51,636 bases of DNA, from assembly GCA_017541205.1 (NCBI GenBank), contig JAFXZO010000088.1, positions 1 through 51,636 on the forward strand, read 5' to 3'. Positions 47,688 through 51,636 of this stretch are shown here, piece by piece. The notes beneath the pieces were generated by a model that did not search any database, was not told the DNA's origin, and was given only the letters and a program-made list of their open reading frames with translations. Numbering within the stretch: the stretch's first letter is position 1; each line of letters begins with the position of its first letter. Source of the stretch: Clostridia bacterium (GTDB taxonomy: Bacteria > Bacillota > Clostridia > Christensenellales > Aristaeellaceae). A program made the position numbers and the translations under genes.

Positions 47688-48488
47688 CTATTGCTCGCTG
47701 GCCGATTTAAGGGCCCGTTTATGTTCATACATCAATTGATCCGCCTGGGCCCAAAGCGCCTCGAGATCGTAGCCCGCTTCGCCGTACACAAAGCCGCAGG
47801 CGATGACGCATTGGATGCCATCCTCCCTTTGATTCAGCTCCGTCAGCCCCGCTTCCCAATCTCTGCGCAGCCGCTCCGCCTCCTCGCGGGTCACATGGAT
47901 CGCCACCACCACGAACTCATCTCCGCCGACCCGGAAGGGCAGCACATTGCGTTTTTCGATCCTGTGCAGGCTTTCGGCAGCCTTTTTGATGAGCTTGTCC
48001 CCGGCCTCATGGCCGTAAGTATCGTTCATGCGCTTCAGGTCATTTACGTCCATGTTGAACACGGCGATGGCGTCCTGCTCCCGGAAAACGGTCCTTTTCA
48101 TTTCCAGGAATTTGCCCTTGTTGTACAGGCCGGTCAGGCTGTCATGGGACTTTTCTTCCTGCAGATGCTTGGAATAATCCGTCATCTCCCGGTATATTTC
48201 CATATACAGACTGGTATCCACCAGATGATGGATCTGGAGCAAGCGGCCGTCCTCGGAAAGCGTGGAGGAAATGACCATATACGATTTCCCGCTGCCGGAG
48301 TGCAGCAGATCCCAGGCTTCGCCCCGCTGCCCTTCCCGCAGGGGCGGGCAGGCAAAAGCCCAGTTGGTTTTTTCCCGCCCGATAAAAGCGGTCTTTTCAT
48401 CTTCATAGAGCACTTCGCCGGATGCGCCGGTAATCCGAATGCCGCCGATATCATCCCTGAAAAAACGAAGGATCATGTCGTCAATCAA
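47688..48488 (-). CDS. Diguanylate cyclase with PAS-like N terminus
   Basis: 266 residues. The N-terminal 130 residues look like a PAS-type sensor (IRITGASGEVLYEDEKTAFIGREKTNW, later GKSYMVISSTLSEDG), then a linker helix leads to the GGDEF domain (DSLTGLYNKGKFLEM, FNMDVNDLKRMNDTYGHEAGD, FRVGGDEFVVV). The catalytic site is intact; no RxxD inhibitory site stands five residues upstream. It makes cyclic di-GMP in the cytoplasm. The start codon is TTG at 48488, preferred because GGGAGG lies about 8 bases upstream; an in-frame ATG at 48476 is too far from it. Confidence 0.9.
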   Translation of the reverse strand: MIDDMILRFFRDDIGGIRITGASGEVLYEDEKTAFIGREKTNWAFACPPLREGQRGEAWDLLHSGSGKSYMVISSTLSEDGRLLQIHHLVDTSLYMEIYREMTDYSKHLQEEKSHDSLTGLYNKGKFLEMKRTVFREQDAIAVFNMDVNDLKRMNDTYGHEAGDKLIKKAAESLHRIEKRNVLPFRVGGDEFVVVAIHVTREEAERLRRDWEAGLTELNQREDGIQCVIACGFVYGEAGYDLEALWAQADQLMYEHKRALKSASEQ

Positions 48489-48608
48489 AGGAATCCCTCC
48501 CGCGCGTTATTTGCCTATTTGAAAAAACAAGATCGCTTACTTAAGCAAAACCATGTTCATCCATAAAACCGAGATCAGGCAAGCCAAACCGTGACAAAAA
48601 ACTGAAAT

Positions 48609-48644
48609 AGAAAAAACCCAGGAAAGTGTTGGTTTTCCTGGGTT
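48609..48644 (-). terminator. Terminator downstream of the rpsI 3' end
   Basis: Minus-strand AACCCAGGAAA (48634-48644), an 8-base loop, TTTCCTGGGTT (48615-48625) and T6. It stands 12 bases after the rpsI-like stop codon and is probably the original rpsI operon terminator. Confidence 0.9.
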
Positions 48645-48655
48645 CGAGCGTGTTA

Positions 48656-48706
48656 TTAACGTTTGGAGAACTGGGGGGCGCGCCTCGCCGCTTTGAGACC
48701 GTACTT
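48656..48706 (-). other. rpsI: 3' end of rpsI: attachment site of an integrative element
   Basis: Reading the minus strand, the last 16 codons and stop give KYGLKAARRAPQFSKR, the invariant C terminus of ribosomal protein S9. Before that (above 48706) the frame reads VLNSASY, unlike S9, which has ERK there. So only this short piece of rpsI is present, followed by a proper terminator. Integrative elements of Firmicutes use the 3' ends of conserved genes, including rpsI, as att sites and restore the full gene at the other end. The piece is therefore read as the distal att site, the full rpsI lying beyond 51636 or elsewhere. Confidence 0.7.
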
Positions 48707-48818
48707 CACAAGGTTGCTCGCGCTGTACCCCTTGAAATGCCTTAGTTTTTTGAAAACCCCAGGAAATTTAACCCCTTCTTAAACCCATCTTTCAAGATAC
48801 TCGAAACATTGCCTGTAA

Positions 48819-49007
48819 TTACTGCCCGAAGGCTTCATTTACCACGGTGGCAAGTTCCCTGGGTTTATTATACTTCGCTTTTGCATAAATGTCCATCATT
48901 ATTTTGCTGTTCTCATGTCCAGCCAAGTACTGAACGGTTTTCGGATCAACGTGGGCGTAAATGAGATTTGTAATATATGTATGACGCAGCTGGTGTGGAG
49001 TGACCTG
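48819..49007 (-). pseudogene. C-terminal fragment of a tyrosine integrase
   Basis: In one minus-strand frame: QVTPHQLRHTYITNL, then VDPKTVQYLAGHENSKIMM and DIYAKAKYNKPRELATVVN, ending in a stop at 48819. These are the HxxRH box, the H/W box region LAGHENS and the catalytic Tyr (DIYAKA) of phage/conjugative-transposon integrases. About 62 codons remain; the core-binding and N-terminal domains are absent, and homology ends at about 49007. Its distance to the rpsI att site (113 bases) and its orientation fit the int gene of an element integrated there. Between 48707 and 48818 no gene is seen. Confidence 0.8.
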
Positions 49008-49008
49008 A

Positions 49009-49221
49009 CAATCTAAGCTGAAAGTCCTTTATCCGCTGATACGAACCTTGAGCATTGATCCCAAGCTCGTTTTCTATCCCGAACACAGTCAGGAATCGCC
49101 AGCCTATAAGCAGCTTCAGCAGATGATCGAGGGCTGCAGCGAAAAAGAAGTAACTACGCTCCTGGTAGTCGTCCGAGATATTCTTGCTGCGCTGCGTTCA
49201 ACAGATTATATAAGTATTTGA
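49009..49221 (+). pseudogene. C-terminal fragment of an HTH (XRE-type) regulator
   Basis: In one plus-strand frame, opened by a stop at 49006: QSKLKVLYPLIRTLSIDPK, then LVFYPEHSQESPAYKQLQQM and LLVVVRDILAALRS, ending in TGA at 49219. It resembles the C-terminal half of short helix-turn-helix regulators carried by integrative elements (the helix after the HTH followed by FYPE and a dimerising tail). The HTH itself is absent. It meets the integrase fragment head-on at about 49008, which looks like a deletion junction. Identification is from memory of the family and is moderately sure. Confidence 0.55.
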
Positions 49222-49268: not shown

Positions 49269-49451
49269 TTACGACATGGGCGCTTTCTCTACGGTCATTT
49301 TCCGTTCCACAAGCGAGATGATATACTCTTTCCTGCACCACGGACAGAATAGCGGAAAGTGAAGCAGCACCGTCTTTTCCAATACCTTCGTTCTTGTTTT
49401 TCTCTCACAATACGGGCATTTCAACCAAAGTTCATTATTTTTTTCGTCCAT
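49269..49451 (-). CDS. Cysteine-rich KTR domain protein
   Basis: 60 residues. CPYCERKTRTKV and LFCPWCRKEYI give the CPxC...CPxC zinc-binding pairs with the eponymous KTR. Such proteins are small cargo of integrative conjugative elements and are intact here. The ATG at 49451 follows GGGAGATAAGC. Their function is unknown. Adjacent to the integrase and HTH fragments, it marks the segment as element-derived; the surrounding 48.8-49.5 kb is visibly less GC-rich than the rest of the window. From 49452 to 49548 no gene was seen. Confidence 0.85.
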   Translation of the reverse strand: MDEKNNELWLKCPYCERKTRTKVLEKTVLLHFPLFCPWCRKEYIISLVERKMTVEKAPMS

Positions 49452-49548: not shown

Positions 49549-50738
49549 TTACTTATGTGTGATGCGTTTTGTTCCCGGCCTGATTGCCCGCTGGGGACAC
49601 ACCAGGATGCACAAATGACAGCTCACACAGTTTTTCCCATTGAGCACCGGGCGGCGGTTTTCGTCCAGGCGGATGGCCTGATGCCCACCGTCCGCGCAGG
49701 AAATCTCGCAACGCCCGCAGCCGATGCAGCGTTCCCGGATGAACTGCGGGAAGATCACCGTATCTCGCTCCAGGGTATCGGTGGTAGGGTTGAGCGTATC
49801 CAGAGCAAGCCCCATAGCTTCCTTGACGCTGCCAAAGCCCTTTTCCGTCAGGTACAGATTTAGCCCCGCTTTCAGATCGTCGATGATCCGATAACCGTAC
49901 TGCATCACGGCGGTGGTAACCTGGATGGAGTTGCCGCCCAGCAAGATAAATTCCAGGGCGTCCCGCCACGTTTCCACGCCGCCCATGGCGGAGAGGTGCA
50001 TTCCCTGCAATGCCGGGTTCTGGCCCAGCTCCGCGATGAACCGCAGGGCGATAGGCTTCACCGCATTGCCACTGTACCCTCCCACAGCACTGTGCCCATG
50101 CACGGCAGGGGCGGACACATAGGTGTGCGGGTTGATGCCAACGATGGATTTGATGGTGTTGATGGCGGCGATGCCATCCGCGCCGCCGCGTTTGGCTGCT
50201 TCGGCAGCAGGGCTCATGGTAGCCACGTTGGGGGTCAATTTGGCCAGCACGGGGATATGGCAGGCTTGCTTCGCGGCGCAGGTGAAGCGCTCCACCAATT
50301 CCGGAACCTGGCCGATGTCGCTGCCCAGGCCACCTTCCGCCATGTTGGGGCAAGAGAAATTGAGTTCGATGGCATCCGCGCCGTTTTCCTCGCAGAGTTT
50401 TGCCAATTCGCCCCATTCCTGCTCGTTCTGCCCCATGATGGAAGCCAGGATGAATTTGGTGGGATACTCCGATTCAGCCTGCGGAAGATCTCCATGTTTT
50501 CCGCCATGCTGTGATCGGAAAGCTGCTCGATATTCTTGAATCCGATAATGCCGCCGTCGCTGCCGGACAGGGCGGAAAACCGGGGCGAGGCTTCATGAAT
50601 ATCCAAGGTGCATATCGTTTTTAAGCAGGCTCCCGCCCAGCCCGCCTCAAAGGCCAGGTCGCACATATCGTAGGTGCTTGCCACCACGGAGGAGGACAAC
50701 AGGAAGGGGTTTTCAAGCGTTATGCCGCCAGATCGCAT
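49549..50738 (-). pseudogene. preA: Dihydropyrimidine dehydrogenase subunit PreA, one frameshift
   Basis: About 396 residues if repaired. PreA reduces uracil/thymine with FMN and Fe-S clusters. The FMN barrel starts LENPFLLSSSVVAST and continues IELNFSCPNMAEGGLG, VLAKLTPNV, GGYSGNAVKP and AMGGVETWRDALEFILLGGNSIQV. Two [4Fe-4S] motifs are at the end: CIGCGRCEISC and CVSCHLCILVCP. One base is missing near 50471-50476 (CTGAATCGGAG where CTGAAATCGGAG is likely), which splits the gene into an N-terminal frame (50738 to about 50475) and a C-terminal frame. The missing base is in a short A run, so an assembly error is likely. It overlaps the upstream Fe-S gene by 19 bases. Confidence 0.85.
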
Positions 50739-51053: not shown

Positions 51054-51636
51054 TCACTCCTTTCCTTCCCCGTGCAGCGGCGGCAGCTCGTGGATGTCAT
51101 AGGTCTCATAGTAGATTTCAAACGCCGTTTTCACGTCCCCGGACAATTCGATCAGCGCGCCGGCCTGGAACATGGTGGAAAGCGTTCCGCTGGGAGCGCG
51201 CCAGGCGGCGTTGCTGGCGACCTTGACCGGGCTGTCCCGGAGGATGGCTTCCGCGCCGAACAGCAGCGTGCCGGTAGCGATATGGTAGTCGCTGGAAATC
51301 ACAGCGATCTGCTGAACCTGCGGGCAATGCTCCTCCAGAATGTCGAAGGTGAAAATGGCGTTCTGCGCCGTGGTGATGGATTTGTCCTCCACATAGACGC
51401 GGGACGGATCGACATCCTGTTCATGAAGCCATTCCGCCATCCTGCCCGCCTCGGTGGCGGTGGGATCGTCCGCCGCGGTGCCGCCGCCGGTGCAGACGAT
51501 GACGGCCTGCGGATATTGTTCCGAAGCCGCCAGCAGCACCTTCAGCCGCTCGATCAGTTCGTCCCGCATGGTCCCGTCCGGATTCAGCTGAAAGCCCAGG
51601 GCCACCAGACAGAGCGTATCATCTTTCGGTAGATCG
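51054..51636 (-). CDS. YdcF/SanA-type DUF218 protein, 3' part
   Basis: The gene starts beyond the window; 194 residues are visible. LVALGFQLNPDG, VIVCTGGGT, AEWLHEQDVDPSRVYVEDKSITTAQNA and AVISSDYHIATGTLLF are the DUF218 pattern (acidic and Arg residues round a Rossmann-like cleft). Members of the family bind nucleotide-like cofactors; some affect envelope integrity. The stop lies 7 bases in front of the ATG at 51049, with the ribosome site for the next gene overlapping the end, so the Fe-S protein and preA are in its operon. Confidence 0.85.
   Translation of the reverse strand, partial: DLPKDDTLCLVALGFQLNPDGTMRDELIERLKVLLAASEQYPQAVIVCTGGGTAADDPTATEAGRMAEWLHEQDVDPSRVYVEDKSITTAQNAIFTFDILEEHCPQVQQIAVISSDYHIATGTLLFGAEAILRDSPVKVASNAAWRAPSGTLSTMFQAGALIELSGDVKTAFEIYYETYDIHELPPLHGEGKE

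Follow-up and report, generated by a model that had tools for sequence, protein, structure and literature searches.

The window analysed here is a whole contig (C18) of 51,636 bases from a draft genome (G000; 121 contigs, 3.0 Mb, 84.9% complete, 2.1% contamination). Other G numbers denote comparison genomes and L numbers denote fetched loci. On the minus strand, positions 48706-48656 encode KYGLKAARRAPQFSKR followed by TAA, which are the C-terminal 16 codons of ribosomal protein S9 (rpsI). When a degenerate codon pattern covering most of this peptide was applied with up to two mismatches, one match was observed in the window and none in 100 shuffled sequences. The remaining part of rpsI is not found upstream of this orphan end. 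A terminator-like hairpin with a T-rich tail (48614..48645, minus strand) lies behind the orphan end and is also present in G006, but a terminator scan around it gave two hits against 1.4 expected, which is not significant by the scan alone. The original prediction, that the last 16 rpsI codons and their terminator are present without the gene body, was thus confirmed.

The C-terminus of a tyrosine integrase (48819..49022, minus strand; PF00589, E-value 2.6e-10) adjoins the rpsI end and consists of 67 codons and a stop (TAA at 48819-48821), the N-terminal part being lost. It aligns to residues 330-401 of the 401-residue integrase of G006 with one stop inside, and the nucleotide identity to G006 is 94% over 48660-49026. 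The window copy is not the complete protein expected of a functional integrase. An integrase fragment had been noted 113 bases from the rpsI end; the fragment is there and the spacing is 112 bases. The spacer between integrase and core (48708..48818, minus strand) contains arm-like repeats at about 48765-48791. On the other side of the orphan gene end, 48547..48655 (minus strand) resembles the left tip of an rpsI-targeting element in which the arm-type repeats have decayed. Similarity reaches to about 48547, with 86.6% identity to the left end (attL) of G006 over 164 columns (48547-48707) and 76.8% to G021.

Homology to G006 stops near 49026, and a putative deletion scar with approximate limits (49023..49047) separates the integrase from a small-protein fragment (49048..49221, plus strand). 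This fragment has no Pfam match and shares 40% identity with a protein encoded next to the KTR gene of L164. It is followed by a gene for a cysteine-rich KTR protein (49269..49451, minus strand; PF14205, E-value 3.4e-19) that is probably element-borne. The KTR protein has matches in four of the 210 fetched loci (52% identity in L164, 38-42% in the others), and in L188 the matching gene is found beyond the junction. The KTR gene and the neighbouring fragment occur together in just one of these 210 loci, L164, about 2 kb before its integrase. The stretch from about 49451 to 48547 (about 0.9 kb) therefore probably derives from an element and has lost sequence near 49023-49047, and the KTR part is assigned to it from one precedent.

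The remnant is flanked by two genes that are not considered part of the element, a GGDEF protein gene (47688..48488, minus strand; PF00990) and a preA-like gene with matches to DHO_dh and Fe-S domains (49549..50738, minus strand). The latter is read in two frames, and its split near 50440-50470 is either a frameshift or a sequencing error. The window contains no tRNA as integration target. No rpsI gene and no second element are present on contig C18, which ends at 51636.

The intact integrase of G006 was used as the query for a survey of genome_contigs and viral_contigs. The survey set consists of 86 loci (the best 80 of 198 confirmed genome_contigs relatives and 6 viral loci), which are not independent as nearly identical ends are common to many of them. 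The S9 C-terminal peptide was found on the same strand in 82 of the 86 loci. It starts 100-227 bases past the end of the integrase match in 80 loci and 555 and 960 bases past it in two others (L144 and L167), and it is absent from the remaining four (L150, L156, L158 and L201). As a control, 11 loci of distant integrases from G000 and its relatives (24-31% identity to the query) were searched and the peptide was found in none. At least two integrase C-termini matched in 67 of the 86 loci. This integrase group docks at rpsI 3' ends, and the window contains an attachment site of such rpsI-targeting elements, as originally predicted, with a spacing like that of the 80 relatives in which the rpsI end lies no more than 300 bases from the integrase.

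The position of the exchange was read from loci L173-L198. Twenty-four of these 26 loci share a 35-base right end (...GATTGAA before the gene end), past which the sequences vary first like synonymous rpsI codons and then as unrelated host sequence. As these 24 loci switch to host-specific rpsI at one base, one exchange boundary can be placed at the third base of the Lys codon before Tyr-Gly-Leu. Element and host have a tract of about 8-12 bases in common, not one of 50. No published account of the crossover of this integrase group was found in the literature searched, and the att-related wording in the IMESag-rpsI paper amounted to a single match, in the reference list. This 35-base right end recurs across many named gut genera, as if one rpsI-integrating element were widely spread.

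Element-like repeats behind a partial rpsI were found in two of the 86 loci (L139, clear; L203, weak) and also in G012. Since the repeat motif was tuned to near relatives, this count is an underestimate. Several other fetched loci show related arrangements. L141 (5325-7320) contains, behind one integrase, two rpsI 3' ends 1.95 kb apart with a shorter third piece between them, and looks like an accretion array. L068 (7129-8588; G041:C5) combines within 1.5 kb the end of a full rpsI, a gene for a HAD hydrolase, the C-terminal fragment of an integrase and a partial rpsI, which resembles a miniature relic with both junctions on one contig. L069 (9074-11737; G012:C118) has two tandem integrase genes, then a partial rpsI and repeated ATGGGTGAAA motifs, and appears to be another junction of the element-element type.

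When the attachment sites were compared, the window was aligned with the empty site (attB) of G042 and with attL and attR of G006 over 60 bases upstream and 54 bases downstream. In G042, rpsI is directly followed by an MscS-like gene (named by eye). The same gene (97% protein identity) lies behind an integrase and a partial rpsI on contig C25 of G006 (attR), and on contig C46 of G006 a full rpsI with a differing end leads into an AntA antirepressor gene (attL); the two junctions are assumed to belong to one element. In G003 and G021 the rpsI end is of the same kind and is followed by genes for an antirepressor (AntA or ANT) and ParB, to which G003 adds a ParA-type ATPase gene. Downstream, attR is identical to attB at 54 of 54 bases, and upstream, attL is identical to attB at 59 of 60, which validates the G006/G042 pair.

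The window agrees with attR at 59 of the 60 upstream bases (the last before the core, within the spacer), and with attL and attB at 13 and 14. Downstream the relation is reversed: 51 of 54 bases are identical to attL and 41 each to attR and attB, with 49/54 for G003 and 50/54 for G021. The orphan rpsI end (48656..48706, minus strand) is thus of the element-borne, AGG-codon type rather than that of the empty site. Between the two sides lies the crossover tract GAAGTACGG (48699..48707, minus strand); GAAGTACGGCCT is common to attB, attL and attR, and the tenth base is T in the window. Element sequence flanks the crossover on both sides. With an attR-like upstream and an attL-like downstream half, the core joins the right end of an element to the left end of an element, such as is found in attP or where two elements stand in tandem.

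An S9 search of G000 found a single full rpsI, on contig C29 (15751-16110); this search did not report the partial copy of the window. The end of this gene is identical to the window copy at 37 of 51 bases (14 differ), which rules out a common core of about 50 bases. A full rpsI with this same core at the other junction had been foreseen; it was not found, and the rpsI of C29 has a different left end. As the draft is 84.9% complete, the second junction may still be missing from the assembly. The sequence behind rpsI on C29 aligns to G033, from another family (78% over the gene end and terminator, 77% at 351-753 bases). The rplM-rpsI bodies of the two are 67% identical, and part of the 78% match is the shared gene end. 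It looks like the C29 rpsI is followed by the left end of another rpsI-integrated element, so rpsI in G000 would have been a target. This is not the element of the window, as the left end matches G033 and not the window.

Two ORFs lacking Pfam matches lie behind rpsI on C29 (L002, 6114-7793), one small and cysteine-rich, the other of 323 aa. The former has a counterpart of 81% identity in G033, also behind rpsI. Downstream (L002, 12725-13675; L066, 2570-4750) are a Nif11-domain peptide (PF07862, barely passing the threshold) and a C39-peptidase ABC transporter, a close relative of which is also behind rpsI in G024. No second rpsI fragment was present in the three stretches of C29 read, the gene itself aside. 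No further copy of the window gene end and tip was found in G000, a weak test because two full rpsI genes, those of C29 and G042, escaped the same query. No close integrase was found in G000, which has three distant ones (24-31%). A distal context like that of G006 was also rejected: the MscS gene of G000 is on C121, and the 20 kb read there contain no fragment of rpsI.

In relatives, orthologs of the GGDEF protein (63-68% identity) were found in five of the 28 other genomes of the genus, and none of the five has an rpsI fragment beside the gene (6.4-20 kb read in each). In G044, the preA gene, a 97-aa ORF, the GGDEF gene and YdcF are clustered in another order, without the relic or an rpsI fragment. 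The relic would thus either have been moved from rpsI by rearrangement or have come by another route.

Our preferred explanation, which we consider reasonably likely, is that the window carries the relic of two elements accreted at rpsI that later decayed and were rearranged. Elements of this family use a tyrosine integrase to recombine their attP with the final codons of rpsI, and they bring along their own version of the last 16 codons together with a terminator and a repeat-bearing left tip. Because the gene end is element-borne, integration would exchange the end of rpsI without breaking the gene and push the old end to the far side. At the junction in the window, the right end of one element (KTR gene, integrase C-terminus and arm sites) is joined to a left end (gene end, terminator and about 100 bases of tip) from the same or another element, as is the case where two elements adjoin in tandem or where one is circular. 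Two elements would thus have accreted at rpsI, most of both would have been deleted, and a rearrangement would have followed. We infer the tandem origin and the order of events from this arrangement and, from the truncated integrase, that function was lost. Several findings speak against a tandem origin. Contig C18 carries neither rpsI nor a second element, so a tandem at rpsI is not directly visible, and G000 yielded neither a further copy of the gene end and tip nor a close integrase. The preA/GGDEF/YdcF cluster of G044 suggests a place unrelated to rpsI, though the order of the genes differs. G003 and G021 have the left tip without a close integrase, and the two can therefore occur apart. 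In the S. salivarius composites as described, two ICEs or two IMEs of the same superfamily never occur in tandem (PMC7563491), which speaks against two like elements.

An unlikely but still noteworthy alternative is that a circular element, or a piece with an intact attP, entered a locus other than rpsI by some other route and decayed there. The clustering of the neighbouring genes in G044 without rpsI, the GGDEF flanks of all five relatives and the location on C121 of the MscS gene that lies behind rpsI in G042 and G006 are in favour of such a capture. However, when the edges were examined for repeats, no sign of another recombinase or a transposon was observed and the repeats around the relic are not transposon-like; moreover, the gene order is unlike that of G044, and what follows rpsI varies within the genus. 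It is more doubtful still that the junction is a simple attR, with one element between the full rpsI and the fragment and the fragment being the displaced end of the host gene, as the original prediction of a short duplicate left at the distal end had it. The orientation and the 112-base spacing fit the integrase family, and the end of the contig at 51636 leaves room for such an arrangement, but the gene end is of the element type (51/54) and not of the host type (41/54), and the full rpsI of the assembly is both different in sequence and followed by another left end. An artefact of assembly or binning, in which element reads were joined to a chromosomal contig, is very improbable; the fragmented and incomplete draft with its slight contamination would allow it, but a truncated integrase and a degraded left tip fit an old insertion and not an active circle.

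An intact attP away from rpsI, with a gene-end mimic and a terminator, might offer rpsI-targeting elements a second place to land. We give this idea a slim chance; if true, new elements could insert with the ribosomal gene untouched. For an integrase group of many gut Firmicutes, a set of empty-site, attL, attR and attP-type sequences is now available, together with one crossover boundary placed to a single base. When a short orphan gene end lies next to an integrase, it is not necessarily the displaced end of the host gene, which matters for the automatic delineation of elements.

The 3' end of rpsI is described as a site of ICEs, IMEs and prophages (PMC4701971, PMC5704250, PMC7487436). Like the group in the window, the ICESt3-related ICEs of streptococci and IMESag-rpsI are reported to combine a tyrosine integrase with this target (PMC4701971, PMC5704250), a likeness drawn from target and integrase class. 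Unlike in these elements, the hosts here are a Christensenellaceae-related genus and other gut bacteria, and the window copy is a relic. Closer in host is ICE_RhoA2-183_rpsI, described as a putative ICE in rpsI of the clostridial gut bacterium Roseburia hominis and as host of a tetracycline-resistance IME (PMC12904643), which is likened to the window by its description. In S. salivarius, 16 of 37 tandem composites are reported to be at rpsI, as are CIMEs and microCIMEs of 130-220 bp (PMC7563491). Tandem accretions, CIMEs and microCIMEs with a chimeric attI resemble the window in their internal junctions of same-target elements, their decay and their frequency at rpsI (PMC7563491, PMC5704250). 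In contrast to those accretions, the relic is known from a contig without rpsI, and its flanks look rearranged. On the best reading, the window carries a decayed element-element junction of this known kind of mobile element, from a common family, and it is unusual in the detail that the gene end it duplicates seems to be the element's own and not the host's.
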